A stretch of DNA of 64,000 nucleotides. Origin: Globodera rostochiensis (taxonomy: Eukaryota; Nematoda; Chromadorea; Rhabditida; Heteroderidae). This document shows, piece after piece, positions 428 through 60,318 of the stretch. Under the pieces are notes generated by a model. The model was given only the letters and a program-made list of their open reading frames with translations, ran no database searches and was not told the DNA's origin. Position numbers and translations under genes: made by a program. Position 1 is the first letter of the stretch, and each line of letters opens with the position of its first letter. The stretch lies in assembly GCA_018350325.1 (NCBI GenBank), contig JAEVLN010000005.1, positions 4,376,393 through 4,440,392 on the forward strand. The letters are read 5' to 3'.

Positions 428-840
428 GGCGAGTGGGTTACAATTGAGGAGAAAATTGCTAATCATTTAAATGTCAATGGTTCAAAAATATATAAATGGA
501 AAAAAAGAATTAAACTTAAGCCAAAAAGTGTTCAATAAAAAAGAAGAACGTAAACATTTTGTAGAGAAATTTAATAAAATGAAAGCCGAGTTAAAGCGGG
601 GCGGATTCAAAAACTCTTATCATCACGAAATTGATGATTGTCGCGAAAGATTTGGGTGTCACTTTTAGAACAATTTCTAATTGGAAAAATGAACTTGGCC
701 AAACCAGTGAGTTTTTCGACCTAATTTTATTTATTTATTTTAATTAAAATTATTTAACAGAACTAAATAAACACTCCGACAGCGAACAAAAAAAATTGAT
801 GAAACGTTATATGAAATTAAGGACCAAAATCCTATGGGCT
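428..840 (+). pseudogene. Decayed family member: modules 1 (partial), 2 and 3, frameshifted
   Basis: Reading starts inside module 1 (EWVTIEEKIANHL, then SKIYKWKK). The frame breaks near 500 and again near 640, and a third 1-nt loss near 810 breaks module 3. The splice signals survive: donor GTGAGT at 707 and acceptor TTAACAG ending at 760 (54-nt intron), followed by a recognisable HSDSEQKKLMKRY. There is no signal peptide. Homology ends abruptly at about 835-840, where the sequence joins a fragment of the GC-rich palindromic repeat (CTTATCGGCACCGCC). It cannot make the full protein. Confidence 0.8.
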
Positions 841-1129
841 GTAAGTCTTGGGATGCGCTTATCGGCACCGCCGGAGCACTCTGCCCCTCATTCCGGTTCT
901 CAGCTGGATTTGGCTCGGAATTCGCGCTCAAGGACTTCATTGCTAGTGCACAGACGTGTGTGGGTCGTGTGCAAAGATTCTGAAAAAAATGTTGTTTTGT
1001 TTCCTTTTTGCGAGGTTTTACATTTAGTAAAACTAAAAACGGAGTCCAGATTCGTGATCAGCGCATCAAATTTAGTGGGAAAAGACTTTTTCCGGCTGAT
1101 TTAGGTTTAAAATGTTGCCATGAAATTTT
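841..1129. other. Unique, GC-richer sequence with a palindromic-repeat fragment
   Basis: This stretch begins with a fragment of the dispersed GC palindrome (858-876) and continues into unrecognised GC-richer sequence up to the satellite. Short open frames exist on both strands, but none shows a recognisable domain or splice structure. Confidence 0.4.
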
Positions 1130-1970
1130 GGTGCATTCTGTATTTCCAGAACACCAAATAACAAATTCTGGTTCATAACTTTCCGGAAAGCCTAATTCTG
1201 GTTCATAATTTACCGGAAAGCCTAATTCTGGTTCAGATGGCTTTCTGGAGCAGATTCTGCTGCATTCTGTATTTTCAGAACACCAAATAACAAATTCTGG
1301 TTCATAACTTTCCGGAAAGCCTAATTCTGGTTCATAATTAACCGGAAAGCCTAATTCTGGTTCAGATGGCTTTCTGGAGCAGATTCTGCTGCATTCTGTA
1401 TTTCCAGAACACCAAATAACAAATTCTGGTTCATAACTTTCCGGAAAGCATAATTCTGGTTCATAATTAACCGGAAAGCCTAATTCTGGTTCAGATGGCT
1501 TTCCGGAGCAGATTCTGCTGCATTCTGTATTTCCAGAACACCAAATAACAAATTCTGGTTCATAACTTTCCGGAAAGCCTAATTCTGGTTCATAACTTTC
1601 CGGAAAGCCTAAATGGTTCAGATGGCTTTCCGAAGCAGCAGATTCTGCTGCATTCTGTATTTCCAGAACACCAAATAACAAATTCTGGTTCATAACTTTC
1701 CGGAAAGCCTAATTCTGGTTCATAATTAACCGGAAAGCCTAATTCTGGTTCATAACTTTCCGGAAAGCCTAATTCTGGTTCATAATTAACCGGAAAGCCT
1801 AATTCTGGTTCAGATGGCTTTCCGGAGCAGATTCTGCTGCATTCTGTATTTCCAGAACACCAAATAACAAATTATGGTTCATAACTTTCCGGAAAGCCTA
1901 ATTCTGGTTCATAATTAACCGGAAAGCCTAATTCTGGTTCAGATGGCTTTCCGGAGCAGATTTTGCTGCA

Positions 1971-2830
1971 TTCTTCTTAACTTTCCGGAAAGCCTAATTC
2001 TGGTTCATAACAAATTCTGGTTCATAACTTTCCGGAAAGCCTAATTCTGGTTCATAATTTTCCGGAAAGCCTAGGCTTTCCGGAGCAGATTCTGCTGCAT
2101 TCTGTATTTTCAGAACACCAAATAACAAATTCTGGTTCATAACTTTCCGGAAAGCCTAATTCTGGTTCATAATTAACCGGAAAGCCTAATTCTGGTTCAG
2201 ATGGCTTTCCGGAGCAGATTCTGCTGCATTCTGTATTTCCAGAACACCAAATAACAAATTCTGGTTCATAACTTTCCGGAAAGCCTAATTCTGGTTCATA
2301 ATTAACCGGAAAGCCTAATTCTGGTTCAGATGGCTTTCCGGAGCAGATTTTGCTGCATTCTGTATTTCCAGAACACCAAATAACAAATTCTGGTTCATAA
2401 CTTTCCGGAAAGCCTAATTCTGGTTCATAATTTTCCGGAAAGCCTAATTCTTGTTCAGATGGCTTTCCGGAGCAGATTCTGCTGCATTCTGTATAAACCA
2501 AATAACAAATTCTGGTTCATAACTTTCCGGAAAGCCTAATTCTGGTTCATAACTTTCCGGAAAGCCTAATTCTGGTTCAGATGGCTTTCTGGAGCAGATT
2601 CTGCTGCATTCTGTATTTTCAGAACACCAAATAACAAATTCTGGTTCATAACTTTCCGGAAAGCCTAATTCTGGTTCATAATTAACCGGAAAGCCTAATT
2701 CTGGTTCAGATGGCTTTCTGGAGCAGATTCTGCTGCATTCTGTATTTCCAGAACACCAAATAACAAATTCTGGTTCATAACTTTCCGGAAAGCCTAATTC
2801 TGGTTCGTAATTAACCGGAAAGCCTAATTC
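1971..2830. repeat. Higher-order unit inside the array, copied at 4023
   Basis: The segment starting at the rare junction TTCTTCTTAA (1971) recurs 2052 bp downstream (4023), with the same order of variant units. The match fades near 4880, where the second copy enters a decayed patch. Confidence 0.75.
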
Positions 2831-5650
2831 TGGTTCAGATGGCTTTCCGGAGCAGATTCTGCTGCATTCTGTATTTCCAGAACACCAAATAACAAATTCT
2901 GGTTCATAACTTTCCGGAAAGCATAATTCTGGTTCATAATTTTCCGGAAAGCCTAATTCTGGTTCAGATGGCTTTCCGGAGCAGATTCTGCTGCATTCTG
3001 TATTTCCAGAACACCAAATAACAAATTCTGGTTCATAACTTTCCGGAAAGCCTAATTCTGGTTCATAATTAACCGGAAAGCCTAATTCTGGTTCAGATGG
3101 CTTTCCGGAGCAGATTTTGCTGCATTCTGTATTTCCAGAACACCAAATAACAAATTCTGGTTCATAACTTTCCGGAAAGCCTAATTCTGGTTCATAATTT
3201 TCCGGAAAGCCTAATTCTTGTTCAGATGGCTTTCCGGAGCAGATTCTGCTGCATTCTGTATAAACCAAATAACAAATTCTGGTTCATAACTTTCCGGAAA
3301 GCCTAATTCTGGTTCATAACTTTCCGGAAAGCCTAATTCTGGTTCAGATGGCTTTCTGGAGCAGATTCTGCTGCATTCTGTATTTTCAGAACACCAAATA
3401 ACAAATTCTGGTTCATAACTTTCCGGAAAGCCTAATTCTGGTTCATAATTAACCGGAAAGCCTAATTCTGGTTCAGATGGCTTTCTGGAGCAGATTCTGC
3501 TGCATTCTGTATTTCCAGAACACCAAATAACAAATTCTGGTTCATAACTTTCCGGAAAGCCTAATTCTGGTTCGTAATTAACCGGAAAGCCTAATTCTGG
3601 TTCAGATGGCTTTCCGGAGCAGATTCTGCTGCATTCTGTATTTCCAGAACACCAAATAACAAATTCTGGTTCATAACTTTCCGGAAAGCATAATTCTGGT
3701 TCATAATTTTCCGGAAAGCCTAATTCTGGTTCAGATGGCTTTCCGGAGCAGATTCTGCTGCATTCTGTATTTCCAGAACACCAAATAACAAATTCTGGTT
3801 ATAACTTTCCGGAAAGCCTAATTCTGGTTCATAATTAACCGGAAAGCCTAATTCTGGTTCAGATGGCTTTCCGGAGCAGCAGATTCTGCTGCATTCTGTA
3901 TTTCCAGAACACCAAATAACAAATTCTGGTTCATAACTTTCCGGAAAGCCTAATTCTGGTTCATAATTTTCCGGAAAGCCTAATTCTGGTTCAGATGGCT
4001 TTCCGGAGCAGATTCTGCTGCATTCTTCTTAACTTTCCGGAAAGCCTAATTCTGGTTCATAACAAATTCTGGTTCATAACTTTCCGGAAAGCCTAATTCT
4101 GGTTCATAATTTTCCGGAAAGCCTAGGCTTTCCGGAGCAGATTCTGCTGCATTCTGTATTTTCAGAACACCAAATAACAAATTCTGGTTCATAACTTTCC
4201 GGAAAGCCTAATTCTGGTTCATAATTAACCGGAAAGCCTAATTCTGGTTCAGATGGCTTTCCGGAGCAGATTCTGCTGCATTCTGTATTTCCAGAACACC
4301 AAATAACAAATTCTGGTTCATAACTTTCCGGAAAGCCTAATTCTGGTTCATAATTAACCGGAAAGCCTAATTCTGGTTCAGATGGCTTTCCGGAGCAGAT
4401 TTTGCTGCATTCTGTATTTCCAGAACACCAAATAACAAATTCTGGTTCATAACTTTCCGGAAAGCCTAATTCTGGTTCATAATTTTCCGGAAAGCCTAAT
4501 TCTTGTTCAGATGGCTTTCCGGAGCAGATTCTGCTGCATTCTGTATAAACCAAATAACAAATTCTGGTTCATAACTTTCCGGAAAGCCTAATTCTGGTTC
4601 ATAACTTTCCGGAAAGCCTAATTCTGGTTCAGATGGCTTTCTGGAGCAGATTCTGCTGCATTCTGTATTTTCAGAACACCAAATAACAAATTCTGGTTCA
4701 TAACTTTCCGGAAAGCCTAATTCTGGTTCATAATTAACCGGAAAGCCTAATTCTGGTTCAGATGGCTTTCTGGAGCAGATTCTGCTGCATTCTGTATTTC
4801 CAGAACACCAAATAACAAATTCTGGCTCATAACTTTCCGGAAAGCCTAATTCTGCTGGTGTAATTAACCGGAAAGCCTAATTCTGGTTCAGATGGCTTTC
4901 CGGAGCAGAAATTCTGCATTCTGTATTTCCAGAACACCAAATACCAAATTCTGGTTCATAACTTTCCGGAAAGCCATTCTGGTTCAGATAGCTTTCGAGT
5001 AGCAATTCTGCTGCATTCTGTATTTTCAGAACAAAATAACCAATTCTGGTTCATAACTTTCCGGAAAAGCCTAATTCTGTTTCATAACTTTGGAAAGCCT
5101 AAATGTTCAGATGGCTTTCCGCAGCAGCAGATTCTGCTGCATTCTGTATCAGAACACCAAATAACAAATTCTGGTTCATAACTTTCCGGAAAGCCTTAAT
5201 TCTGGTTTAATTAACCGGAAGCATAATTCTGGTTCAGATGGCTTTCCGGAGCAGATTCTGCTGCACTGTATTTCCAGAACACCAAACAAATTCTGGTTCA
5301 TAACTTTCCGGAAAGCATAATTCTGGTTCATAATTTTCCGGAAAGCCTAATTCTGGTTCAGATGGCTTTCCGGAGCAGATTCTGCTGCATTCTGTATTTC
5401 CAGAACACCAAATAACAAATTCTGGTTATAACTTTCCGGAAAGCCTAATTCTGGTTCATAATTAACCGGAAAGCCTAATTCTGGTTCAGATGGCTTTCCG
5501 GAGCAGCAGATTCTGCTGCATTCTGTATTTCCAGAACACCAAATAACAAATTCTGGTTCATAACTTTCCGGAAAGCCTAATTCTGGTTCATAATTTTCCG
5601 GAAAGCCTAATTCTGGTTCAGATGGCTTTCCGGAGCAGATTCTGCTGCAT

Positions 5651-7930
5651 TCTTCTTAACTTTCCGGAAAGCCTAATTCTGGCTCATAACAAATTCTGGT
5701 TCATAACTTTCCGGAAAGCCTAATTCTGGTTCATAACAAATTCTGGTTCATAACTTTCCGGAAAGCCTAATTCTGGTTCAGATGGCTTTCCGGAGCAGAT
5801 TCTGCTGCATTCTGTATTTTCAGAACACCAAATAACAAATTCTGGTTTATAACTTTCCGTAAAGCCTAATTCTGGTTCAGATGGCTTTCCGGAGCAGCAT
5901 TTCCAGAACACCAAATACCAAAATCTGGTTCATAACTTTCCGGAAAGCCTAATTCTGGTTCAGATGGCTTTCCGGAGCAGATTCTGCTGCATTCTGTATT
6001 TTCAGAACACCAAATAACAAATTCTGGTTCATAACTTTCCGGAAAGCCTAATTCTGGTTCATAACTTTCCGGAAAGCCTAATTCTGGTTCATAACCATTC
6101 GTAAAGCCTAATTCTGGTTCAGATGGCTTTCCGGAGCAGCAAATTCTGCTGATTCTGTATTTCCAGAACACCAAATACCAAATTCTGGTTCATAACTTTC
6201 CGGAAAGCCTAATTCTGGTTCAGATAGCTTTCGAGTAGCAAATTCTGCTGCATTCTGTATTTTCAGAACACCAAATAACAAATTCTGGTTCATAACTTTC
6301 CGGAAAGCCTAATTCTGGTTCATAACTTTCCGGAAAGCCTAAATGGTTCAGATGGCTTTCCGAAGCAGCAGATTCTGCTGCATTCTGTATTTCCAGAACA
6401 CCAAATAACAAATTCTGGTTTATAACTTTCCGGAAAGCCTAATTCTGGTTCATAATTAACCGGAAAGCATAATTCTGGTTCAGATGGCTTTCCGGAGCAG
6501 ATTCTGCTGCATTCTGTATTTCCAGAACACCAAATAACAAATTATGGTTCATAACTTTCCGGAAAGCCGGTTCATAACTTTCCGGAAAGCCTAATTCTGG
6601 TTCATAATTTTCCGGAAAGCCTAGGCTTTCCGGAGCAGATTCTGCTGCATTCTGTATTTTCAGAACACCAAATAACAAATTCTGGTTCATAACTTTCCGG
6701 AAAGCCTAATTCTGGTTCATAATTAACCGGAAAGCCTAATTCTGGTTCAGATGGCTTTCCGGAGCAGATTCTGCTGCATTCTGTATTTCCAGAACACCAA
6801 ATAACAAATTCTGGTTCATAACTTTCCGGAAAGCCTAATTCTGGTTCATAATTTTCCGGAAAGCCTAATTCTGGTTCAGATGGCTTTCCGGAGCAGATTC
6901 TGCTGCATTCTGTATAAACCAAATAACAAATTATGGTTCATAACTTTCCGGAAAGCCTAATTCTGGTTCATAACTTTCCGGAAAGCCTAATTCTGGTTCA
7001 GATGGCTTTCTGGAGCAGATTCTGCTGCATTCTGTATTTTCAGAACACCAAATAACAAATTCGGGTTCATAACTTTCCGGAAAGCCTAATTCTGGTTCAT
7101 AACCATCCGTAAAGCCTAATTCTGGTTCAGATGGCTTTCCGGAGCAGCAAATTCTGCTGATTCTGTATTTCCAGAACACCAAATACCAAATTCTGGTTCA
7201 TAACTTTCCGGAAAGCCTAATTCTGGTTCAGATAGCTTTCGAGTAGCAAATTCTGCTGCATTCTGTATTTTCAGAACACCAAATAACAAATTCTGGTTCA
7301 TAACTTTCCGGAAAGCCTAATTCTGGTTCATAACTTTCCGGAAAGCCTAAATGGTTCAGATGGCTTTCCGAAGCAGCAGATTCTGCTGCATTCTGTATTT
7401 CCAGAACACCAAATAACAAATTCTGGTTCATAACTTTCCGGAAAGCCTAATTCTGGTTCATAATTAACCGGAAAGCATAATTCTGGTTCAGATGGCTTTC
7501 CGGAGCAGATTCTGCTGCATTCTGTATTTCCAGAACACCAAATAACAAATTATGGTTCATAACTTTCCGGAAAGCCGGTTCATAACTTTCCGGAAAGCCT
7601 AATTCTGGTTCATAATTTTCCGAAAAGCCTAGGCTTTCCGGAGCAAATTCTGCTGCATTCTGTATTTTCAGAACACCAAATAACAAATTCTGGTTCATAA
7701 CTTTCCGGAAAGCCTAATTCTGGTTCATAATTAACCGGAAAGCCTAATTCTGGTTCAGATGGCTTTCCGGAGCAGATTCTGCTGCATTCTGTATTTCCAG
7801 AACACCAAATAACAAATTCTGGTTCATAACTTTCCGGAAAGCCTAATTCTGGTTCATAATTTTCCGGAAAGCCTAATTCTGGTTCAGATGGCTTTCCGGA
7901 GCAGATTCTGCTGCATTCTGTATAAACCAA
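5651..7930. repeat. Higher-order segment A of the array (copied at 11676)
   Basis: The order of variant units from TCTTCTTAAC at 5651 matches that from 11676: the offset is 6025 bp at first and 5926 bp after loss of one 99-bp unit. Rare private variants such as CCGAAAAGCCTAGG at 7620 are shared with 13548, so the duplication is recent or an assembly artefact. Confidence 0.75.
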
Positions 7931-10900
7931 ATAACAAATTATGGTTCATAACTTTCCGGAAAGCCTAATTCTGGTTCAGATGGCTTTCCGGAGCAGATTC
8001 TGCTGCATTCTGTATAAACCAAATAACAAATTATGGTTCATAACTTTCCGGAAAGCCTAATTCTGGTTCATAACTTTCCGGAAAGCCTAATTCTGGTTCA
8101 GATGGCTTTCTGGAGCAGATTCTGCTGCATTCTGTATTTTCAGAACACCAAATAACAAATTCTGGTTCATAACTTTCCGGAAAGCCTAATTCTGGTTCAT
8201 AACCATCCGTAAAGCCTAATTCTGGTTCAGATGGCTTTCCGGAGCAGCAAATTCTGCTGATTCTGTATTTCCAGAACACCAAATACCAAATTCTGGTTCA
8301 TAACTTTCCGGAAAGCCTAATTCTGGTTCAGATAGCTTTCGAGTAGCAAATTCTGCTGCATTCTGTATTTTCAGAACACCAAATAACAAATTCTGGTTCA
8401 TAACTTTCCGGAAAGCCTAATTCTGGTTCATAACTTTCCGGAAAGCCTAAATGGTTCAGATGGCTTTCCGAAGCAGCAGATTCTGCTGCATTCTGTATTT
8501 CCAGAACAACACCAAATAACAAATTCTGGTTCATAACTTTCCCGGAAAGCCTAATTCTGGTTCAATTAACCGGAAAGCATAATTGGTTCAGATGGCTTCC
8601 CGGAGCAGATTCTGCTGCATTGTATTTCCAGAACACCAAATAACAAATTATGGTTCATAACTTTCCGGAAAGCCGGTTCAACTTTCCGGAAAGCCTAATT
8701 CTGGTTCATAATTTTCCGGAAAAGCCTAGGCTTTCCGGCAGATTCTGCTGCATTCTGTATTTTCAGAACACCAAATAACAAATTCTGGTTCATAATTCCG
8801 GAAAGCCTAATTCTGGTTCATAATTAACCGGAAAAGCCTAATTCCTGGTTCAGGGCTTTCCGGAGCAGATTCTGCTGCATTCTGTATTTCCCGAAACCTA
8901 ATAATACAATTGTTCATACTTTCCGGAAAGCCTAATTCTGGTTCATACTTAACCGGAAGCCTAATTCTGTCAGATGGCTTTCCGCACAGCAGATTCTGCT
9001 GCATTCTGTATTTCCAGAACACCAAATCAAATTATGGTTCATAACTTTCCGGAAAGCCTAATTCTGGTTCATAATTAACCGGAAAGCCTAATTCTCGTTC
9101 AGATGGCTTTCCGGAGCAGATTCTGCTGCATTCTGTATTTCCAGAACACCAAATAACAAATTCTGGTTCATAACTTTCCGGAAAGCCTAATTCTGGTTCA
9201 TAATTAACCGGAAAGCCTAATTCTCGTTCAGATGGCTTTCCGGAGCAGATTCTGCTGCATTCTGTATTTCCAGAACACCAAATAACAAATTCTGGTTCAT
9301 AACTTTCCGGAAAGCCTAATTCTGGTTCATAATTATCCGGAAAGCCTAATTCTGGTTCAGATGGCTTTCCGGAGCAGATTCTGCTGCATTCTGTATAAAC
9401 CAAATAACAAATTATGGTTCATAACTTTCCGGAAAGCCTAATTCTGGTTCAGATGGCTTTCCGGAGCAGATTCTGCTGCATTCTGTATAAACCAAATAAC
9501 AAATTATGGTTCATAACTTTCCGGAAAGCCTAATTCTGGTTCATAACTTTCCGGAAAGCCTAATTCTGGTTCAGATGGCTTTCTGGAGCAGATTCTGCTG
9601 CATTCTGTATTTTCAGAACACCAAATAACAAATTCTGGTTCATAACTTTCCGGAAAGCCTAATTCTGGTTCATAACCATCCGTAAAGCCTAATTCTGGTT
9701 CAGATGGCTTTCCGGAGCAGCAAATTCTGCTGATTCTGTATTTCCAGAACACCAAATACCAAATTCTGGTTCATAACTTTCCGGAAAGCCTAATTCTGGT
9801 TCAGATAGCTTTCGAGTAGCAAATTCTGCTGCATTCTGTATTTTCAGAACACCAAATAACAAATTCTGGTTCATAACTTTCCGGAAAGCCTAATTCTGGT
9901 TCATAACTTTCCGAAAAGCCCAAATGGTTCAGATGGCTTTCCGAAGCAGCAGATTCTGCTGCATTCTGTATTTCCAGAACACCAAATAACAAATTCTGGT
10001 TCATAACTTTCCGGAAAGCCTAATTCTGGTTCATAACTTTCCGGAAAGCCTAAATGGTTCAGATGGCTTTCCGAAGCAGCAGATTCTGCTGCATTCTGTA
10101 TTTCCAGAACACCAAATAACAAATTATGGTTCATAACTTTCCGGAAAGCCGGTTCATAACTTTCCGGAAAGCCTAATTCTGGTTCATAATTTTCCGGAAA
10201 GCCTAGGCTTTCCGGAGCAGATTCTGCTGCATTCTGTATTTTCAGAACACCAAATAACAAATTCTGGTTCATAACTTTCCGGAAAGCCTAATTCTGGTTC
10301 ATAATTAACCGGAAAGCCTAATTCTCGTTCAGATGGCTTTCCGGAGCAGATTCTGCTGCATTCTGTATTTCCAGAACACCAAATAACAAATTCTGGTTCA
10401 TAACTTTCCGGAAAGCCTAATTCTGGTTCATAATTTTCCGGAAAGCCTAATTCTGGTTCAGATGGCTTTCCGGAGCAGATTCTGCTGCATTCTGTATAAA
10501 CCAAATAACAAATTATGGTTCATAACTTTCCGGAAAGCCTAATTCTGGTTCAGATGGCTTTCCGGAGCAGATTCTGCTGCATTCTGTATAAACCAAATAA
10601 CAAATTATGGTTCATAACTTTCCGGAAAGCCTAATTCTGGTTCATAACTTTCCGGAAAGCCTAATTCTGGTTCAGATGGCTTTCTGGAGCAGATTCTGCT
10701 GCATTCTGTATTTTCAGAACACCAAATAACAAATTCTGGTTCATAACTTTCCGGAAAGCCTAATTCTGGTTCATAACCATCCGTAAAGCCTAATTCTGGT
10801 TCAGATGGCTTTCCGGAGCAGCAAATTCTGCTGATTCTGTATTTCCAGAACACCAAATACCAAATTCTGGTTCATAACTTTCCGGAAAGCCTAATTCTGG

Positions 10901-11675
10901 TTCAGATAGCTTTCGAGTAGCAAATTCTGCTGCATTCTGTATTTTCAGAACACCAAATAACAAATTCTGGTTCATAACTTTCCGGAAAGCCTAATTCTGG
11001 TTCATAACTTTCCGGAAAGCCTAAATGGTTCAGATGGCTTTCCGAAGCAGCAGATTCTGCTGCATTCTGTATTTCCAGAACACCAAATAACAAATTATGG
11101 TTCATAACTTTCCGGAAAGCCGGTTCATAACTTTCCGGAAAGCCTAATTCTGGTTCATAATTTTCCGGAAAGCCTAGGCTTTCCGGAGCAGATTCTGCTG
11201 CATTCTGTATTTTCAGAACACCAAATAACAAATTCTGGTTCATAACTTTCCGGAAAGCCTAATTCTGGTTCATAATTAACCGGAAAGCCTAATTCTCGTT
11301 CAGATGGCTTTCCGGAGCAGATTCTGCTGCATTCTGTATTTCCAGAACACCAAATAACAAATTCTGGTTCATAACTTTCCGGAAAGCCTAATTCTGGTTC
11401 ATAATTTTCCGGAAAGCCTAATTCTGGTTCAGATGGCTTTCCGGAGCAGATTCTGCTGCATTCTGTATAAACCAAATAACAAATTATGGTTCATAACTTT
11501 CCGGAAAGCCTAATTCTGGTTCAGATGGCTTTCCGGAGCAGATTCTGCTGCATTCTGTATAAACCAAATAACAAATTATGGTTCATAACTTTCCGGAAAG
11601 CCTAATTCTGGTTCATAATTTTCCGGAAAGCCTAATTCTGGTTCAGATGGCTTTCCGGAGCAGATTCTGCTGCAT

Positions 11676-13860
11676 TCTTCTTAACTTTCCGGAAAGCCTA
11701 ATTCTGGCTCATAACAAATTCTGGTTCATAACTTTCCGGAAAGCCTAATTCTGGTTCATAACAAATTCTGGTTCATAACTTTCCGGAAAGCCTAATTCTG
11801 GTTCAGATGGCTTTCCGGAGCAGATTCTGCTGCATTCTGTATTTTCAGAACACCAAATAACAAATTCTGGTTTATAACTTTCCGTAAAGCCTAATTCTGG
11901 TTCAGATGGCTTTCCGGAGCAGCATTTCCAGAACACCAAATACCAAAATCTGGTTCATAACTTTCCGGAAAGCCTAATTCTGGTTCATAACTTTCCGGAA
12001 AGCCTAATTCTGGTTCATAACCATCCGTAAAGCCTAATTCTGGTTCAGATGGCTTTCCGGAGCAGCAAATTCTGCTGATTCTGTATTTCCAGAACACCAA
12101 ATACCAAATTCTGGTTCATAACTTTCCGGAAAGCCTAATTCTGGTTCAGATAGCTTTCGAGTAGCAAATTCTGCTGCATTCTGTATTTTCAGAACACCAA
12201 ATAACAAATTCTGGTTCATAACTTTCCGGAAAGCCTAATTCTGGTTCATAACTTTCTGGAAAGCCTAAATGGTTCAGATGGCTTTCCGAAGCAGCAGATT
12301 CTGCTGCATTCTGTATTTCCAGAACACCAAATAACAAATTCTGGTTCATAACTTTCCGGAAAGCCTAATTCTGGTTCATAATTAACCGGAAAGCATAATT
12401 CTGGTTCAGATGGCTTTCCGGAGCAGATTCTGCTGCATTCTGTATTTCCAGAACACCAAATAACAAATTATGGTTCATAACTTTCCGGAAAGCCGGTTCA
12501 TAACTTTCCGGAAAGCCTAATTCTGGTTCATAATTTTCCGGAAAGCCTAGGCTTTCCGGAGCAGATTCTGCTGCATTCTGTATTTTCAGAACACCAAATA
12601 ACAAATTCTGGTTCATAACTTTCCGGAAAGCCTAATTCTGGTTCATAATTAACCGGAAAGCCTAATTCTGGTTCAGATGGCTTTCCGGTGCAGATTCTGC
12701 TGCATTCTGTATTTCCAGAACACCAAATAACAAATTCTGGTTCATAACTTTCCGGAAAGCCTAATTCTGGTTCATAATTTTCCGGAAAGCCTAATTCTGG
12801 TTCAGATGGCTTTCCGGAGCAGATTCTGCTGCATTCTGTATAAACCAAATAACAAATTATGGTTCATAACTTTCCGGAAAGCCTAATTCTGGTTCATAAC
12901 TTTCCGGAAAGCCTAATTCTGGTTCAGATGGCTTTCTGGAGCAGATTCTGCTGCATTCTGTATTTTCAGAACACCAAATAACAAATTCTGGTTCATAACT
13001 TTCCGGAAAGCCTAATTCTGGTTCATAACCATCCGTAAAGCCTAATTCTGGTTCAGATGGCTTTCCGGAGCAGCAAATTCTGCTGATTCTGTATTTCCAG
13101 AACACCAAATACCAAATTCTGGTTCATAACTTTCCGGAAAGCCTAATTCTGGTTCAGATAGCTTTCGAGTAGCAAATTCTGCTGCATTCTGTATTTTCAG
13201 AACACCAAATAACAAATTCTGGTTCATAACTTTCCGGAAAGCCTAATTCTGGTTCATAACTTTCCGGAAAGCCTAAATGGTTCAGATGGCTTTCCGAAGC
13301 AGCAGATTCTGCTGCATTCTGTATTTCCAGAACACCAAATAACAAATTCTGGTTCATAACTTTCCGGAAAGCCTAATTCTGGTTCATAATTAACCGGAAA
13401 GCATAATTCTGGTTCAGATGGCTTTCCGGAGCAGATTCTGCTGCATTCTGTATTTCCAGAACACCAAATAACAAATTATGGTTCATAACTTTCCGGAAAG
13501 CCGGTTCATAACTTTCCGGAAAGCCTAATTCTGGTTCATAATTTTCCGAAAAGCCTAGGCTTTCCGGAGCAAATTCTGCTGCATTCTGTATTTTCAGAAC
13601 ACCAAATAACAAATTCTGGTTCATAACTTTCCGGAAAGCCTAATTCTGGTTCATAATTAACCGGAAAGCCTAATTCTGGTTCAGATGGCTTTCCGGAGCA
13701 GATTCTGCTGCATTCTGTATTTCCAGAACACCAAATAACAAATTCTGGTTCATAACTTTCCGGAAAGCCTAATTCTGGTTCATAATTTTCCGGAAAGCCT
13801 AATTCTGGTTCAGATGGCTTTCCGGAGCAGATTCTGCTGCATTCTGTATAAACCAAATAA
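11676..13860. repeat. Higher-order segment B of the array (copy of 5651)
   Basis: This is the partner of the segment at 5651 and lacks one 99-bp unit relative to it. Its opening part recurs a third time from 14613. Confidence 0.75.
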
Positions 13861-19386: not shown

Positions 19387-19605
19387 TCATTCAAATACTT
19401 CCCGAATTTGAATTATCAATTTCCTGAATATTTGCCGCGGCATTGTTGGCGCCGGCGTTTTCAAATCTTCGGCTTCACCTTTGTCCCACCAGCCTTCTCC
19501 GAATATTTCATCAAATGTTTTGAGCTCCAATTTAACGGATTCGGATTTGTCCAGTGAATTTGTCGCAAAGAATAAAAACAAAATTGAAATTGAAAAGTTT
19601 TCCAT
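19387..19605 (-). pseudogene. Internally deleted family member: secreted N-terminus only (72 aa)
   Basis: The 72-residue frame keeps the signal peptide (MENFSISILFLFFATNS) and the SVKLELKTFDEIFGEGWWD and DLKTPAPT segments. It then jumps directly into DNA that encodes the family C-terminal tail, read in the wrong frame (MPRQIFRK instead of NAAANIQE). The linker, all three HTH-like modules and the intron are gone. A small secreted peptide could still be made, but the shape is that of a deletion derivative. The junction lies near 19442. Confidence 0.75.
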
Positions 19606-34150: not shown

Positions 34151-34262
34151 GTAAAACAGTATTTTCAAAATCATAGACTCTTCATTCAAATGCTCTCCGA
34201 ATTCGACTTTTCAATTTCCTGAATCTTTCTGGCGCTTCATCAACAGAATTTAGATGCAATTT

Positions 34263-42705: not shown

Positions 42706-42870
42706 CGGTGCCCAAATGACTCGTGCCCAAATGACTCGTGCCCAAATGACTCGTGCCCAAATGACTCGTGCCCAAATGACTCGTGCCCAAATGACTCGTG
42801 CCCAAATGACTCGTGCCCAAATGACTCGTGCCCAAATGACTCGTGCCCAAATGACTTGTGCCAAAATGAC
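42706..42870. repeat. 15-bp tandem repeat, about 11 copies
   Basis: Units of GACTCGTGCCCAAAT run head to tail, forming the sub-terminal part of the inner Mutator-like element. The open frames across it are by-products of the 15-bp period. Confidence 0.95.
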
Positions 42871-44119: not shown

Positions 44120-44315
44120 CTTTTCTGAACATTTGCCGCGGCATTCTCTTCCACAGAATGCCCATCGACAGAATTTGTGTAATTGATTTTTTCCATCTAT
44201 GCAAAGTGCGGCCTCCAATTTTAACATTTTGGCAATTTCCTTGTCACTAATTTTAGGATTTTGGTCATTAATTTTATAATAACGTTTCATCAATTCCTTT
44301 TGTTCGCTATGTTTT
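44120..44315 (-). pseudogene. Orphan, frameshifted exon 2 (module 3) of the family
   Basis: The minus strand reads EQKELMKRYYKINDQNPK and SDKEIAKMLK, then shifts at the position of KIGRRTL. The tail DNA (GAATGCCGCGGCAAATGTTC) is recognisable. It has no exon 1 or acceptor; homology ends right of 44315. Confidence 0.75.
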
Positions 44316-46517: not shown

Positions 46518-46865
46518 TAGTTTTGTTTTTTAATTTTTGTGTCATTTTTTGCAACAAATTCATTGGACAAAGCCGAATCGTAAAAGTAAAAATGGAGGAA
46601 ACTTCACTCAAAACATTTTACAACAATTATCTTTTGGAAACTTAACTTGGCCAATCCATGAGTCAATTAATTTATTTAAGCTAATTAAATTATTTAACAG
46701 AACCACAACATAACCATAACGAGCAAAAAGAATTAATGAAACATTATTATGAAATTAAAGACAAAAATCCTAAAAAGGAAATTGCCAAAATGTTGAAAAT
46801 TGGATAAATGGAAAAAGCAATTTAAACGACAACAATTACATCCAAATTCTGTTTTTGATGTTTCT
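46518..46865 (+). pseudogene. Heavily decayed family member
   Basis: Pieces in order: a signal-peptide-like FVSFFATNSLDKAES; a gap with loss of linker and modules 1-2; GNLTWPIHESI at a ruined donor (CATGAG); an acceptor TTTAACAG ending at about 46700; and NEQKELMKHYYEIKDKNPK with module 3 interrupted at KIG-stop. Multiple frameshifts and losses rule out function. Confidence 0.75.
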
Positions 46866-47275
46866 GTTTCCTCTTGCTTTTCTATCAACTGTCGATATTT
46901 GTCGACATATTCCGAAAAATGTTCAAACAAAACAGCTTATTTATTTCAAAGATATCGACCCAAAAGCTATCCAATGGCAGAAAAAATTGTGCTTTTATAA
47001 ATCTGGGGTTGGAAGCAATTTTTTCCCGATTATTAGTGATCATTTGAGTCAACCTAACCGTTTAAGTTTTTGGAAAGTGTTATTCGGGCAAAATTCTTGC
47101 CGAGCGCCCAGTTGAACGATTCCCATTTAGTTGCTGAAAAGCTCATTTTTAATGGGTATTATTTATTAATATTGAAATTGAATATTTTACTATTTTTTAA
47201 TTTAAGAATATTTTTGAGAGAAAATCTTAACACAAAAATATTGTCAAATTTTTTCCATATCGAATTTTACGTTAA

Positions 47276-47727
47276 ATGGAAAAATTTTGGGTTTTAATTT
47301 TGGTGGCATTTTTTGCAACAAATTCATTCGACAAATCCGAATCCGTTAAATTGGAGCTCAAAACATTTGATGAAATATTCGGAGAAGGCTGGTGGGACAA
47401 TGACAAAGACAAAGAAGGGCATAAATTAACGCTTGAACAAAATGTCCTTTACCAAATCGACCGGCAGAACACCCAAACCAGTGAGCATTTATTGTATTAA
47501 TTTATTTATATTAATTAACAATTCTTTTTACAGAACCACAACATAAATACTCCCACAGCGGACAAAATGAATTGATGAAACGTTATTATGAAATTAAGGA
47601 CCAAAATCCTAAAATGAGTGTTGGAGACATTGCCAAAATGTTTAAAATTGATGCAAGCACTTTGTATAAATGCAAAAATTGGCAATCTTTGTCAAGAAAA
47701 TCAAAGCAAAAATTCAGAAACATGTGA
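47276..47727 (+). CDS. Internally deleted family member: secreted N-terminus plus truncated module 3 (132 aa)
   Basis: Exon 1 is 47276-47480 and exon 2 is 47534-47727; the 53-nt intron keeps GTGAGC and TTTTTACAG signals and phase 1. The product has a signal peptide (MEKFWVLILVAFFATNS), SVKLELKTFDEIFGEGWWDN, then KLTLEQNVLYQIDRQNTQ. It jumps straight to the donor, so the linker repeats and modules 1-2 are missing. In exon 2 the frame is open through SGQNELMKRYYEIKDQNPK to TLYKCK, where dispersed-repeat DNA replaces the end of module 3 (tail NWQSLSRKS...NM). The deletion joins CACCCAAA to CCAAACCAG across a shared CCAAA. It is open and spliceable, but whether it is expressed or functional is uncertain. 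Confidence 0.55.
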
Positions 47728-48823: not shown

Positions 48824-49863
48824 ATGAATGAGTTTCGGCTTTTAATTTTGGTTTTATTCTTTCCAATAAATGCACTGGACAAAGCCGACTCCGTTAAATT
48901 GGAACTCAAAACATTTGATGAAATATTCGGAGAAGGCTGGTGGGACAAAGGTGAAGCCGAAGATTTGAAAATGCCGGCGCCAACAAACTTTGGACAAAAT
49001 GTCCATCACCAAATCGACCGACAGAACACCCAAATTGGACAAATTGAACCCAATTCAACTGATCAGCTTGGACAAATTGAACCAAATTCAACTGATCAGA
49101 TTGGACAAATTGAACCCAATTCAACTGATCAGATTGGACAAATTGAACCGAATTCAACTGATCAGCTTGGACAAATTGAACCCAATGGACAAATTGAAGA
49201 AAATATTGTCGAAGATGAGCGAAAACGTAAAATTATCGACAAATTCCACGCAATAAAAGACGAATTTAAGCAAAAAGGAAAATATTCGGCAAAAGAATGG
49301 ACTAAAATTGAGAATGAAATTAGTACAAATTTTGGAGTCAAGCGCCGAAAAATATATAAATGGAAAAAAGAAATTGGCTTAAGTCGAAAAGCGTTCTATG
49401 AAAAAGAAGAACGTAAACATTTAATAGAGAAATTTGATCAAATGAAAGCCGATTTAAAGCGGGCCGGATTCAAAAATTCTTATCCCAATCAAATTAATAA
49501 AACTGTCGCAAAAGAATTGGGAGTAAGTGATACAACAATTTACATTTGGAAAAGTGAACTTGGCCAATCCAGTGAGTATTTTGATTTTATTAATTTAATT
49601 TAATTTAACTAAAAACTTTTACAGCACCAGACTATAAATACCCCCACAGCGAACAAAAGGAATTGATGAAACGGTATTATGAAATTAAAGACAAAAATCC
49701 TAAAATTAATGACAAGGAAATTGTTAAATTGTTGGAAATTGGAATTACCACTTTGGTTAGATGGAAGAGACAATTTAAACGACAGCAATTTCATCCAAAT
49801 TCTGCCAAGAATGCCGCGGCAAATGTTCAGGCAATTGGGAACTCGAATTTGGGGATTATTTGA
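48824..49863 (+). CDS. Secreted HTH-repeat family protein, 328 aa, intact
   Basis: Exon 1 is 48824-49571 and exon 2 is 49625-49863; the 53-nt intron has GTGAGT at 49572 and TTTTACAG ending at 49624, phase 1. Residues 1-18 are a signal peptide (MNEFRLLILVLFFPINA). FDEIFGEGWWD is at 31-41. Four perfect and one partial IGQ/LGQIEPNSTDQ repeats span 71-123. Module 1 is about 132-185 (KIYKWKKEIG), module 2 about 196-246 (TIYIWKSELG) and module 3 about 258-299 (TLVRWKRQFK). The tail NAAANVQAIGNSNLGII is complete. The 3' flank (GGTCAATGATCGAATCTGTG) is shared with the copy at 17162. Confidence 0.85.
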
Positions 49864-51632: not shown

Positions 51633-52771
51633 TCAAATGCTCCCCAAATTTGAGTTCCCAATTTCCTGAACATTTGCCGCGGCATTCTCTTCCACAGAAT
51701 GTCCATCAACAGAATTTGGATGAAATTGCTGTCGTTTAAATTGCTTTTTCCATCTAACCAAAGTGGTTCTTCCAATTTTCAACATTTTGGCAATGTCCTT
51801 GTCCCTAATTTTAGGGTTTTGATCTTTAATTTCATAATAAAATTTCATTAATTCATTTTGTTCGCTGTGAGAGTGTTTATGTTGTGGTTCTGTAAAAGAA
51901 TTTTTAATTAATTTAATTAAATAAACAAAATTGGGCTCGAAAACTTACTGGTTTGGCCAAGTTCACTTTTCCAATTAGAAATTGTTCTAAAACTGAGGCC
52001 CAACTCTTTTGCAACAGTTTTATCAATTTCTTGATGATAAGAGTTTTTGAATCCGCCCCGCTTTAACTCGGCTTTTCTCTGGTAAAATTTCTCTACCAAA
52101 TGTTTACGTTCTTCTTTTTCATATAACACTTTTTGATTTAGGCCAAATTCTTTTTTCCATTTATATATCTTTTTGCGATTTACTTTGAAATGTTTAGCAA
52201 TTTCTTTCTCAATTTGAATCCATTCATTTTTTGAATATTTTCCTTTTTGCTTAAATTCGTCTTTTATTGCGTGGAATTTGTCGATTATTTTACGTCTTGC
52301 ACCTTCAACAAGATTTTCGTTTGAAGACATTTCTTTCTGTTCTTCGCTTTTTTTGGCATTATCAGAGTGATCAGACTCTGTGAGAGGAGGATTTTGATCA
52401 GTTGAATTTGGTTCATTTTGTCCATTGTGATCAGACTCTGTGAGAGGAGCATTCTGATCAGTTGAATTGGGTTCGATTTGTCCAAGCTGATCAGTTGAAT
52501 TAGGTTCAATTTGTCCAAGCTGATCAGTTGAATTGGGTTCAATTTGTCCAAGCTGATCAGTTGAATTGGGTTCAATTTGTCCAATTTGGGTGTTCTGTCG
52601 GTCGATTTGGTGAAGAGCATTTTGTTCAAGCGTTAATTTATCCCATTCTTTGGCTTTGTCATTGTCCCACCAGCCTTCACCGAATATTTCATCAAATAAG
52701 TCTACGGATTCGGATTTGTCGAATGAATTTGTTGCGAAGAATGACACCAAAATAATCCAAAATTTATCCAT
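51633..52771 (-). CDS. Secreted HTH-repeat family protein, 359 aa, intact
   Basis: Exon 1 is 52771-51949 and exon 2 is 51889-51633; the 59-nt intron has GTAAGT at 51948 and TTTTACAG ending at 51890, phase 1. Signal peptide MDKFWIILVSFFATNS. It has the second N-terminal type, SVDLFDEIFGEGWWDNDK then KLTLEQNALHQIDRQ. Four IGQ/LGQIEPNSTDQ repeats span 63-106, followed by a diverged NGQNEPNSTDQ at 116-126 inside a duplicated PPLTESDH spacer. Module 1 is about 158-210 (KIYKWKKEFG), module 2 about 221-272 (TISNWKSELG), and module 3 lies in exon 2 (TLVRWKKQFK). The tail VEENAAANVQEIGNSNLGSI is complete. It has the longest linker in the cluster. Confidence 0.85.
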
Positions 52772-54872: not shown

Positions 54873-55849
54873 ATGGAAGAATTTTGGATTTTAATTTTTG
54901 TGTCATCCTTTGCAATAAATTCACTCGAAAAAGCCGAATCCGTTAAATTGGAGCTCAAAACATTTGATGAAATATTCGGAGAAGGCTGGTGGGACAAAGG
55001 TGAAGCCGAAGATTTGAAAACGCCGGCGCCAACAAACTTTGGACAAAATGTCCATCACCAAATCGACCGACAGAACACCCAAATTGGACAAATTGAACCC
55101 AATTCAACTGATCAGCTTGGCAACTGATCAGCTTGGACAAATTGAACCCAATTCAACTGATCAGAATCCTCCTTTCATAGAGTCTGATCATAAAGATGAG
55201 CGAAAACGTAAAATTATTGACAAATTCCACGCAATTAAAGACGAATTTAAGCAAAAAGGAAAAAATTCAAAAAAAGAATGGAATCAAATTGAAAGGAAAA
55301 TTGTTAAACATAAAAGTCAGTCGCAGAAAAATTTTTGAATGGAAGAAAGAATTTGGCCTAAATCAAAAAGTGTTTTATGAAAAAGAAAAACGTAAACATT
55401 TAATAGAGAAATTTGATCAAATGAAAGCCGAGTTAAAACGGGACGGATTCAAAAACTCTTATCCCAATCAAATTAATAAAACTGTCGCAAAAGAATTGGG
55501 CATAAGTGATACAACAATTTACAGGTGGAAAAGTGAACTTGGCCAAACCAGTGAGTATTATTATTATTTTTATATTCATTTAAATTCTTTTACAGAACCA
55601 AATAAACATTCCCACAGTGAACAAAAGGAATTGATGAAACATTATTATGAAATTAAGGACAGAAATCCTAAAATTAGGGACGAGGACATTGCCAAAATGT
55701 TAAAAATTGGAATAGCCACTTTAATTAGATGGAAAAAGCAATTTAGACGACAGCAAATGCATCCAAATTCTGCCAAGAATGCAGCCGCAAATATTCAGGA
55801 AATTGGGAACTCAAACAAAGATTTTCAAAATTTTGTTACAATCTTTTAA
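54873..55849 (+). pseudogene. Nearly complete family member with two frameshifts
   Basis: Signal peptide (MEEFWILIFVSSFAINS), FDEIFGEGWWD and one repeat are in the first frame. A partial repeat unit (CTTGGCAACTGATCAGCTTGG at 55117) shifts the frame after TDQLGN. Module 1 is read in the second frame until a 2-nt loss near 55309 (AAACATAAAAGTC) shifts again to VSRRKIFEWKKEFG. Module 2, the intron (55551-55595, 45 nt, free of stops) and module 3 (TLIRWKKQFRRQQ) are intact. The last residues come from dispersed-repeat DNA (NSNKDFQNFVTIF). Both shifts lie in repeat or A-rich sequence, so an assembly error cannot be excluded. Confidence 0.75.
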
Positions 55850-57010: not shown

Positions 57011-58153
57011 TTAGTTGCCAATTTCCTGAACATTTGCCGCGGCATTCTTTTCAACAGAATTGACAGAATTTGGATTAAATTGCTTTTTCCATCTTCGCAA
57101 AGTGCGTGATACAATATTCAACATTTTGGCAATGTCCTTGTCACTAGTTTTAGAATTTTTGTCCTTAATTTCATAATAATGTTTCATCAATTCCTTTTGT
57201 TCACTGTGGGAATGTTTATTTGATTCTGTAAAAGAATTTTAATTAATTGTAAGGATTTGAGTGTTCCGCTGGTTGGACGAGACGGTTAAAACGCCTATGG
57301 CGGGGGCAAAAGATCATCCATAAAGAAGAAGGCTAATGGGTCGCCCCGGTAGCTCAGTTGGAAGAGCTTCCCACGGATTGGGTGGAGGACGTGGGTTCGA
57401 GTCCCACCCGGCGCTAACATTTTGCCTATTCTTCTTTACTTAATATAAATTAATAATAAAATTAGGCTCAAAATACTCACTGGTTTGGCCAAGTTTACGT
57501 TTCCACCTGTAAATTGTTACAAAATCGAGGCCCAACTCTTTTGCGACAGTTTTATCAATTTGATTTGAATAAGAGTTTTTAAGCCCGGCCCGCTTTAATT
57601 CGGCTTTCATTTGATCAAATTTCTCTACCAAATTTTTTCGCTCATTTTTTGGATTTCTTTGAGTTAAGCCCAATTCTTTTTTCCATTTATATATTTTTTT
57701 GCGATTGACTTTTAAATGCTTTGCAATTTCATTCTCAACTTTAGTTCTTTCTTTTGCCGAATATTTTCCTTGTTGCTTAAATTCTTCTTTTATTGCGTGG
57801 AATTTTGCAACAATTTTACGTTTTCGGTGATCTTCCGCAATATTTTCATATGAAATTATTTCTTTAATTATTTCATTCTCTCCATCATTTTTGCCATTTA
57901 AGTTATGATCAGACTCTGTGAGAGGAGCATTCTGATCAGTTGAATTGGGTTCAATTTGTCCAATTTGGGTGTTCTGCCGATCGATTGGGTGGTGGAAATT
58001 TTGTTCAAGCGTTAATTTATCCCATTCTTTGGCTTTGTCATTGTCCCACCAGCCTTCACCGAATATTTCATCAAATAAATCTACGGATTCGGATTTGTCC
58101 AGTAAATTTGTTGCGAAGAATGACACCAAAATTATAATCCAAAATTTAACCAT
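57011..58153 (-). CDS. Secreted HTH-repeat family protein, 295 aa, with a tRNA-like insertion in its intron
   Basis: Exon 1 is 58153-57481 and exon 2 is 57225-57011. The 255-nt intron keeps GTGAGT at 57480 and TTTTACAG ending at 57226, and phase 1; it is five times the family length because it holds about 200 bp of foreign DNA. The product has a signal peptide (MVKFWIIILVSFFATN), the second N-terminal type (SVDLFDEIFGEGWWDNDK), one IGQIEPNSTDQ repeat, module 1 (KIYKWKKELG), module 2 (TIYRWKRKLG) and module 3 (TLRRWKKQF), then a 4-codon-shorter joint (NPNSVNSVEK). The tail stops early at QEIGN. An upstream in-frame ATG (MHNK) adds only four residues. Confidence 0.75.
57340..57415 (+). tRNA. 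tRNA-like sequence inside the intron, probably not a functional tRNA
   Basis: GCCCCGGTAGCTCAGTTGG and GTGGGTTCGAGTCCCAC carry A- and B-box sequences and D- and T-arm stems. The 7-bp acceptor stem (GCCCCGG with CCGGCGC) has one C-C mismatch. The spacing gives the usual length of about 73 nt, but the anticodon arm pairs poorly and position 33 is not T, so no anticodon can be named. It is antisense to the host gene. Flanks AAAGAAGAAGG and TATTCTTCTTT are roughly inverted. Confidence 0.45.
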
Positions 58154-58460
58154 TTTATTGTGCAAAACAACCTCTAAATATGGGCATTTATATGAAATTC
58201 AATTTTTATTGAAATTTTTGCTTTCAAATTATGAAAGCAATTAATAAAAATGTAAAAACATATAAATCCATGCGCTAGCAATTTAGTGACAGCCCAGAAT
58301 TGAAGGACCAAATCAATATTCCTTACATCTCATAAATATATTTTTTGATGACATCTCATAAATATATTTTTTGATGACATCTCATAAATATATTTTTTGT
58401 GACATCTCATAAATATATTTTTTGAACCAGGACAAAATCAATGCAAATATTTTTCCTACT
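58154..58460 (-). promoter_or_regulatory. Upstream block with 4 tandem copies of its ATCTCATAAATATATTTTTT core
   Basis: GACAGCCCAGAATTGAAGG and CAATATTCCTTACATCTC begin the block at 58288. The GACATCTCATAAATATATTT core is then repeated four times (58326-58424, unit about 31 bp), then GAACCAGGACAAAATCAAT. The repeat is unique to this copy. Confidence 0.55.
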
Positions 58461-58818
58461 TATGGTGTCCCATAGAAAATGAGAAAATTAATTGTTTTAA
58501 AAATCATTTCAGATCAGTTTATTGTCTTATTGTTGAATTCTTGTTCATCGATATACCAGGCGCGGGCACGGGCATCCGGATATCCGTGGATATATTCGGA
58601 TACGAAATGTCATCAGTAGGCATGCATAATTTTAATCATTTTTACTTGAGTTCCCTTATTGATGGCATAATGGATTTGTCTTTTTGGCAATCATCACTCT
58701 AGGGTGTATATTATTAACAAAGAAATCAAAGTGAATTTGTCATTTCTGAACAGATCCAAATAATCCTGGGCTCGTGTCAAAAAATTTCTGGGTTTTCCCA
58801 AATCATTGACCAAGTAAT
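58461..58818. other. Intergenic, no gene seen
   Basis: CGGATATCCGTGGATATATTCGG words near 58575, and TTTTTGGCAATCATCACTC near 58680 which is shared with 51440. No coding signal. Confidence 0.4.
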
Positions 58819-60318
58819 TCAGTTCGTGTTCCCAATTTCCTGAACATTTGCCGCGGCATTCACTTCAACAGAATCGACAGAATTTGGATTCAATTGCCGT
58901 CGTTTAAATTGCTTTTTCCATTTAAACAAAGTACCACTACCAATTTTTAAGATTTTGGCAATGTCCCCAACACTCATTTTAGGATTTTTGTCCTTAATTT
59001 TATAATAACATTTCATTAATTCCTTTTGTTCACTGTGGGCGTATTTATGTTGTGGTTCTGTAAAAGAATTTTTAATTAATATAAATAAATTAATACAATA
59101 AATACTCACTGGTTTGGCCAAGTTCGCGTTTCCAAGCGTAAATTGTTCTAACACTTAGGCCCAATTCTTTTGCGACAGTTTCATTTATTTCTTGCTTATA
59201 TGAGTTTTTGAATCCGGCCCGTTTTAACTCGGCTTTCATTTGATCAAATTTCTCTACCAAATTTTTTCGCTCATTTTTTGGATTTTTTCGGCTTAAACCA
59301 AATTCTTTTTTCCATTGTTTTATTGTGCCAACATTTACCCCAAATCTTTCAACGATTTCGTTGCATGATTTTTTGTTGTCACCGGAATGTGCACTTTCCA
59401 TTTGCATTAACTTTTTCACAATTTCAACCTTTTCATCGTCCGAATAATTTGTCCCTAAAAAAAGCAAAAACTTCAAAAAATGTAAATTATTTTTGTGTTT
59501 GATTTGAAAACAATTTTATCCACCTAACATTTAACCTATTTTAGCAAACATTGAGAATAAATCTTACCGATTTTGCCAAGTTCACTTTTCCAATTGTAAA
59601 TTGTTGCCAAACCAAGGCCCAACTCTTTTGCGACAGTGTCATCAATTTCGTGCTTATAAGAGTTTTTGAATCCGTCCCGCTTTAACTCGGCTTTTCTTTT
59701 ATCAAATTTCTCTATTAAATTAATTCGTTCATTTTTTGGATTTCTTCGGCTTAAGTCTAATTCTTTTTTCCATTCAAATATTTTTGTGCGACTGACTTTT
59801 AAATGTTTAGCAATTTTCATTTCAATTGTAGCCCATTCTTTTGCCGAATATTTTCCAATTTGCTTAAATTCGTCTTTAATTGCGTGGAATTTGTCGATTA
59901 TTTTACGTTTTTCGTTTGAAGTAATTTCTTCCATTGTATTGCTTTGTTGTTCACTATTTTTGGCATTATCAGAGTGATCAGACTCTGTGAGTGGAGGATT
60001 CTGATCAGTTGAATTGGGTTCAATTTCTCCAAGCTGATCAGTTGAATTGGGTTCAATTTGTCCAAGCTGATCAGTTGAATTGGGTTCAATTTGTCCAAGC
60101 TGATCAGTTGAATTGGGTTCAATTTGTCCAATTTGGGTGTTCTGCTGGTCGATTTGGTGAAGATTTTGTTCAAGCGTTAATTTATGCCATTCTTCGTCTT
60201 TGTCATTGTCCCACCAGCCTTCTCCGAATATTTCATCAAATAAGTCTACGGATTCGGATTTGTCGAATGAATTTGTTGCAAAAAACAACACAAAAATTAA
60301 GATCCAAAATTTATCCAT
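58819..60318 (-). CDS. Expanded HTH-repeat family protein: three exons, five modules, 444 aa
   Basis: Exons 60318-59568, 59454-59110 and 59057-58819. Intron 1 (113 nt) has GTAAGA at 59567 and TTTTTAG ending at 59455; intron 2 (51-52 nt) has GTGAGT at 59109 and TTTTACAG ending at 59058. Both are phase 1 and the summed coding length (1335) is divisible by three. Signal peptide MDKFWILIFVLFFATNS; FDEIFGEGWWD at 27-37; four repeats at 63-106. Module 1 is about 136-190 (KIFEWKKELD), module 2 about 197-248 (TIYNWKSELG), module 3 about 255-304 (a distinct type, SCNEIVERFGVNVGTIKQWK), module 4 about 312-363 (TIYAWKRELG) and module 5 about 376-417 (TLFKWKKQFK). Exon 2 is an extra two-module exon. Alternatively the two halves are separate genes, but the second half then has no signal peptide or upstream block. 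Confidence 0.75.

Follow-up and report, generated by a model that had tools for sequence, protein, structure and literature searches.

A very large family of leader-bearing proteins with variable helix-turn-helix modules in Globodera rostochiensis

In the TAL effectors of Xanthomonas and Ralstonia, repeated DNA-binding modules combine variable residues with a constant scaffold, and one account (PMC12886408) presents these proteins as entering plant cells with an acidic segment that may serve in activation. The cyst-nematode effector GLAND4 (Gr-1106) is described as a secreted DNA-binding protein that is reported in plant nuclei and suppresses genes, and the HYP effectors of Globodera, as summarized in PMC11228951, have constant ends and a variable middle, with the variation produced by shuffling. 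Here, we describe a family that invites comparison with these systems and is represented by 17 loci in a 64,000-nucleotide stretch of the Globodera rostochiensis genome (assembly GCA_018350325.1, contig JAEVLN010000005.1, forward-strand positions 4,376,393 to 4,440,392; hereafter, the window, position 1 being its first letter). The proteins consist of a hydrophobic leader, a near-invariant acidic-aromatic core, an acidic linker and a basic array of helix-turn-helix (HTH) modules. What is new is that, in modules 2 and 3, variation is greatest at those residues of the recognition helix that are predicted to face DNA, an effect that recurs in a second subfamily.

Like the TAL effectors, the family joins repeated modules of a DNA-binding type, with variable residues on a constant scaffold, to an acidic segment that is a possible activation region, in proteins predicted to enter plant cells. 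Unlike them, it is built of three-helix HTH modules of 46-56 residues instead of TALE repeats with repeat-variable di-residues, has a classical leader in place of type III secretion, and comprises hundreds of loci. Compared by description only, GLAND4 is reported to have 10 paralogues in Gr-Line19 as opposed to the 503 core-motif places found here, and the HYP genes (PMC11228951) are described as single-gene loci with motif shuffling within a domain as opposed to many HTH loci that are mosaic at the nucleotide scale. The SPRYSEC family resembles the present one in its very large size and its presence in this genome (429 candidates, of which 150 SPRY matches were scored) but differs from it in domain content, SPRY being absent from the Pfam families listed for eight proteins of the present family. 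The modules themselves share their fold with HTH_28, HTH_23 and HTH_Tnp_1, with profile matches above the cut-off, whereas the leader, the tandem arrangement and the confinement to Globodera among the relatives listed set the family apart. The part of the effector-family table seen in PMC8359618 describes none of its entries as HTH, and searches of the open-licence literature in PubMed Central, which covers few subscription papers and no preprints, listed no title or abstract opening that describes this family, which may be known to specialists under another name.

The first-pass annotation of the window, based on its letters alone, had proposed about 17 copies of a secreted, modular HTH-repeat family that had been amplified. 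A tblastn search with five family pieces as queries recovered 17 loci over positions 428-60318, and the amplification extends far beyond them: the 92.6-Mb genome, on whose contig C45 the window lies, contains 350 exact matches to the core FDEIFGEGW, which that annotation had singled out, and 153 to a sister core, FDEIFGKGW, compared with 0 for either pattern reversed. The sum, 503, counts core-motif matches and is a lower bound for the family, not a number of genes; the window cluster is a small fraction of the whole. The N-terminus, described there as a signal peptide, is leader-like, a hydrophobic leader being found in 80 of the 82 copies with a start codon in the usual place (Kyte-Doolittle mean of at least 2.0 over 8 residues within the first 25; 93 copies examined, 13 from the window and 80 fetched). 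A second strongly hydrophobic stretch is absent in 43 of 57 open copies. Typically, exon 1 of an open copy encodes a leader some 22 residues long, then FDEIFGEGWW, a linker that is acidic and in many cases contains GQIEPNSTDQ repeats, and two HTH modules; exon 2, after a phase-1 intron, encodes a third module with a conserved end. The modules align over 46-56 residues instead of the 52 or so ascribed to them. The phase-1 intron described as common to the loci has its GTRAG donor one base past the last Thr codon in 34 of the 42 two-module copies examined (GTGAGT in 31) and a length of 50-59 nt in 25 of 41 (the acceptor taken as the first [CT]AG past the donor), although the copy at 44753-45706 is apparently single-exon.

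An HTH family of Pfam scored above its cut-off in 5 of 8 scanned proteins, with matches to HTH_28, HTH_23 or HTH_Tnp_1 and several HTH families scoring alike. AlphaFold models of a 317-residue protein of the second subfamily (mean predicted local distance difference test score, pLDDT, 71) and of a 233-residue exon 1 of the first (mean 73) both contain three helices per module, most module stretches reaching a pLDDT of about 80-97 with lower patches, and the linker is largely of low confidence in both. The HTH assignment of the first-pass annotation, for which a different fold was the contrary outcome, therefore agrees with both profiles and models. Modules 1, 2 and 3 have mean net charges of +10.4, +4.5 and +6.8, and cysteine is nearly missing from them (22 in 7055 residues). 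No catalytic domain, DDE or other, of a transposase appears among the families listed for the eight proteins at E <= 1 (25 of 27 families listed for one of them).

We distinguish at least three subfamilies: A, with two exons, to which the majority of the window copies belong; B, apparently single-exon, with one open frame, three modules, the FDEIFGKGW core and a second motif, FDEIY..NWSEDE; and a group on contig C2 (loci L009-L022), with long and short module types and up to eight modules per frame (L010 has 620 residues). In subfamily A, the ratio of nonsynonymous to synonymous substitution rates (dN/dS), for which a value near 1 was another contrary outcome of the first-pass annotation, is 0.51 in the leader, 0.33 in the core and 0.70, 0.42 and 0.58 in modules 1, 2 and 3 (13 nearest disjoint pairs among 27 copies). 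Within modules 2 and 3, by entropy, the recognition helix appears to be the most variable part, and the fastest five of the 55 positions of module 2 (44, 51, 43, 48 and 42) all lie in this helix or its cap (22 nearest pairs). The N-cap and positions 1, 2, 5, 6 and 9 of helix 3 are a textbook choice of DNA-contacting residues. With these six as the test set and the helix defined from the models, the mean nonsynonymous rate (beta) across 45 A copies (38 fetched and 7 from the window) is 1.70 in module 2 compared with 0.43 elsewhere (permutation p 5e-5), and polar-consensus positions outside the set are also slow (0.38). In module 3 (44 copies in the tree fit, one stop-bearing row being dropped), the values are 1.59 and 0.70 (p 0.012; p 0.029 against polar positions only). 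The ratio of nonsynonymous to synonymous diversity (piN/piS) is 1.76, 1.21 and 1.65 in the sets of modules 1, 2 and 3 as opposed to 0.70, 0.43 and 0.57 outside them, that is, 2.5, 2.8 and 2.9 times higher, with intervals above 1; in module 1, the high value is largely due to a low piS. Because pairwise silent diversity is about level between the set and the remaining positions (0.327 and 0.277 in module 2, 0.290 and 0.305 in module 3), a plain mutation hotspot is argued against in these two modules.

Because the variation in subfamily A was known before the set was chosen, subfamily B served as the independent check (22 copies: the one in the window and 21 picked from high-scoring matches; in the B numbering, with Trp as position 8, the set is 1, 2, 3, 6, 7 and 10). 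Among 55 positions in module 2, variability peaks at helix positions 2, 7 and 3, and among 46 in module 3 it peaks at 6, 2 and 3, so that the top three of each module belong to the set; by hand calculation, the chance of three out of three in a six-position set is about 0.0008 and 0.0013, respectively. The C2 group is variable at similar positions. Acidic residues make up 3.7% at the variable set positions of module 2 as opposed to 8.8% at its other variable positions, and 1.5% as opposed to 22% in module 3. In both modules, four residues of the recognition helix (T, I or L, W, and K) hardly vary. Signatures are distinct in 24 of the 45 A copies for module 1, in 43 for module 2 and in 44 for module 3, and modules 2 and 3 combined distinguish all 45. 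Among database proteins, 86 of 93 helix strings of module 2 and 136 of 149 of module 3 are distinct, as are 29 of the 31 modules that a rough pattern assigned to the module 1 type. Alignment positions 26, 30 and 34 of module 1, which are among its fastest, lie on one face of helix 2, possibly another interface.

The A copies are mosaics of one another, as follows from linkage equilibrium beyond about 12 bp. At 27 sites with two common alleles (minor allele at least 30%) in the 45 copies, the squared correlation between sites (r2) is 0.298 for pairs closer than 12 bp and 0.028 for those at least 12 bp apart, compared with 0.027 after permutation, and all four gametes occur in 327 of 327 of the latter pairs. 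In trees simulated without recombination, r2 is 0.57-0.70 and 35-55% of pairs show four gametes; star-like trees leave almost no sites with two common alleles. In subfamily B the decay is more gradual: r2 is 0.356 for sites no more than 11 bp apart and reaches 0.049 at separations of at least 166 bp (permuted 0.057). As a control, 20 SPRY exons, a small set with near-identical pairs, retain somewhat more linkage, with an r2 of 0.107-0.108 from 12 bp on (permuted 0.053), than do 20 A copies, the matched size, with 0.062-0.069 (permuted 0.055). The mosaics most likely arose by gene conversion, short-tract exchange between paralogues being the simplest account. Because recombination weakens tests that assume a tree, we rely on the pairwise measures.

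As far as sequence can tell, the succession of leader, acidic-aromatic core, acidic linker and basic HTH array fits the plan one would expect for a DNA-binding regulator that is secreted, and the proteins are best read as diversified, secreted DNA-binding candidate effectors with predicted action in host nuclei. Tentatively, and ahead of the alternatives weighed below, we favour the full reading in which a family of at least 503 loci encodes proteins that are most likely secreted and are predicted to enter host cells and to bind DNA through diversified HTH arrays. Under such a model, short-tract conversion among paralogues would reshuffle modules and supply variants, and selection would preserve the fold while favouring new recognition residues. 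The leader would route the protein into the secretory pathway, delivery into plant cells would follow, and basic clusters, of which runs of four basic residues occur in 15 of 45 copies compared with 4.3 expected from shuffles, could carry it into the plant nucleus. Module 1, with its less variable recognition helix, might then serve as the anchor, leaving modules 2 and 3 to be the variable readers, with the core recruiting the host transcription machinery; the activating role of the core is conjectured from the residues it is made of. It is conceivable, if somewhat doubtful, that the family is an animal parasite's counterpart of the TAL effectors, with hundreds of secreted HTH arrays, helices reshuffled by conversion, a signature for each copy, reprogramming of host genes and an activating core.

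Several observations weigh against this interpretation. The leader was assessed from hydrophobicity alone, the sequons of the linker, which the worm would glycosylate, also fit an extracellular role, and a function in the apoplast would suit both these sequons and a nuclear signal that is still unproven. Dorsal-gland effectors, according to PMC4901422, carry the DOG box ATGCCA at a mean of 2.54 within 500 bp upstream, with two or more as the prediction rule, whereas a single box is present in 15 of the 38 intact A copies and two or more in none of them; the mean is 0.39, compared with 0.12 in shuffled sequence and 0.61 in a downstream control. By the measure of a usual start and at least two in-frame modules, 31 of the 80 sampled loci are not intact. 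The predicted template modelling score is low in both models (0.35 for the B protein and 0.41 for the A exon), and Foldseek, run with the B model only, returned no PDB match at E 0.001 or better. Furthermore, module 1 does not follow the pattern: beta is not higher in its set (1.05 as opposed to 0.87, p 0.29), the sites that change fastest in it are not those of the set and include some on helix 2, and module 1 of the 22 B copies has no excess variation at the set. Support of 0.9 or more for beta exceeding the silent rate alpha is reached at only 1, 1 and 2 of the six set sites in modules 1, 2 and 3, and at 6, 4 and 3 sites outside; the tree-fit silent rate is higher in the set of module 2 (2.46 as opposed to 1.18, mostly due to site 51), and these tree-based site tests are themselves weakened by the recombination found. 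The test set was picked after the variation in subfamily A had been seen, which leaves the B test as the sole independent one, and exposed residues without function could be free to vary too.

In an alternative reading, a secreted HTH fold was reused for binding plant proteins or varies under plant immune recognition, the face changing since it is exposed and not since it reads DNA. The linker sequons and the acidic linker suit extracellular life, and the hyper-variable HYP effectors (PMC11228951) belong to the same genus. Nevertheless, we consider such a use rather unlikely, given the scarcity of acidic residues on the variable face, the nearly cysteine-free modules and the slow evolution of polar positions outside the set in module 2. 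Another alternative is neutral drift, in which a former DNA-binding helix lies idle and its face changes under gene conversion. The piN/piS values of the set, only slightly above 1 (1.21-1.76), and the thin strong site support are in line with relaxed constraint of this kind, but the near-invariance of the four helix residues in modules 2 and 3 and the continued rarity of acidic residues at the variable positions make it improbable.

Fast-changing readers directed against mobile DNA occur in other animals, and by analogy the proteins might have their role within the nematode itself, such as in eggs or against its own mobile DNA, with the leader directing them to an internal compartment or not working. 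The promoter motif, below the dorsal-gland level, fits such a role; the strongly hydrophobic leader, superfluous in a protein destined for the worm's own nuclei, speaks against it, and we regard it as quite unlikely. Lower still is the probability that the family is a spreading genetic element or its debris, without a cellular role. Hundreds of core copies, the proportion of loci that are not intact, the HTH_Tnp_1 matches and the name 'Transposase' that UniProt attaches to many family members among the matches listed are what such an element would leave. Yet dN/dS is below 1 in every region, no catalytic transposase domain was listed, the introns are kept, the sequence shared among copies fades at about -450 and +1250, counted from the start codon, where the flanks become unique, and the longest exact inverted repeat in the flanks of 38 copies (mean 10.4 bases, maximum 16) hardly exceeds that in shuffled sequence (9.5). 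A derivation of the module from a transposase or from a host, both raised in the first-pass annotation, stays conjectural, with no catalytic domain listed and several HTH families scoring alike in the one case and all the relatives listed being Globodera in the other. The secreted nuclear effectors suggested there we also infer from sequence, with a promoter motif below the level of known dorsal-gland effectors.

By core-motif count, this is a very large leader-bearing family in the genome of a major potato pest, in which many members are labelled 'Transposase' in the database and the second subfamily is sparsely represented. If the proteins do read DNA as predicted, they would illustrate how an animal can address many plant genes, and the varied helices would constitute a natural library from which the mapping of HTH sequence to DNA target could be learned. 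Even without DNA reading, linkage equilibrium among paralogues at about 12 bp represents striking diversity through exchange between loci. For Globodera, somatic editing of another effector gene has already been proposed (PMC11228951).

The 80 fetched loci come from the first 81 of 100 FDEIFGEGW places listed, on contigs C2-C19, with one place on C3 omitted; 69 have a start codon in the usual place, in 54 the frame that begins there stays open for 200 residues or more, and 49 are intact. The database relatives listed are all from Globodera and nearly all from G. rostochiensis (120 of 280 and 120 of 294 matches listed). A search with the B copy found six proteins, four from G. rostochiensis and two from G. 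pallida, few given how common the FDEIFGKGW core is in the genome. Only 1 of 57 copies has an exact match among 150 database proteins compared, the 232-residue exon-1 product of L054 being contained letter for letter in a G. rostochiensis protein; the database may derive from another line or use other gene models. Five copies (L048 and L059-L062) have a very long linker repeat, and the fetched sequence contains no module in the frame of the repeat; one long-linker copy contains 27 exact GQIEPNSTDQ units, and L062 is free of stops over 767 residues.

Seven of the 17 window loci, among them the subfamily B copy, are apparently fully open over exon 1 and tail, and one more has an open exon 1 but a stop near the end of the tail; the remaining nine are frameshifted, shortened, orphan tails, devoid of modules 1-2 or cut by the window edge:

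428-1104, plus strand: cut by the window start; partial module 1 at 431-517, module 2 at 546-720 with frame slips near 640-665, tail-like frame at 748-1104
17165-18169, minus strand: leader, core, linker and module 1 open until a stop; module 2 off-frame; tail
19420-19605, minus strand: truncated, leader and core only
22890-23834, minus strand: exon 1 (two modules) and tail open
30463-30564, minus strand: truncated, leader and core only
34239-35176, minus strand: exon 1 open (the exon modelled with AlphaFold); stop near the end of the tail
35648-35812, minus strand: orphan tail module
38359-39272, plus strand: exon 1 and tail open
44120-44311, minus strand: orphan tail remnant
44753-45706, minus strand: subfamily B, single open frame with leader, FDEIFGKGW core, FDEIY..NWSEDE motif and three modules
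46521-46895, plus strand: remnant made of a leader piece and a tail piece
47276-47676, plus strand: short form, leader and core followed by tail; modules 1-2 absent
48824-49860, plus strand: exon 1 (two modules) and tail open
51636-52771, minus strand: exon 1 (two modules) and tail open; intron directly read
54873-55816, plus strand: linker with a frameshift; other frames hold the modules and the tail
57014-58153, minus strand: exon 1 (two modules) and tail open
58822-60318, minus strand: exon 1 (two modules), an extra two-module stretch at about 59099-59455, and tail; at most five modules

The B copy at 44753-45706 is 68% identical to its Globodera pallida relative P0121. By eye, the database protein P0052 resembles the copy at 38359-39272 with module 1 skipped, owing to either an error in the gene model or alternative splicing.

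Apart from the family, the window contains several tandem arrays. Related units of 30 bp and 129 bp make up a 15-kb array at positions 1125-16278, with many open frames arising through the repetition, and at 25755-26481 a 28-bp unit is repeated about 26 times at 97% identity and is open in three frames of one strand. At 42708-42870, roughly 11 repeats of a 15-bp unit lie within open frames of both strands. A candidate gene lies at 27746-28561, where a 36-bp unit repeated 15.6 times at 98% identity forms an open frame of 271 residues that is rich in sequons and reads CTNSTSEIIKPN.

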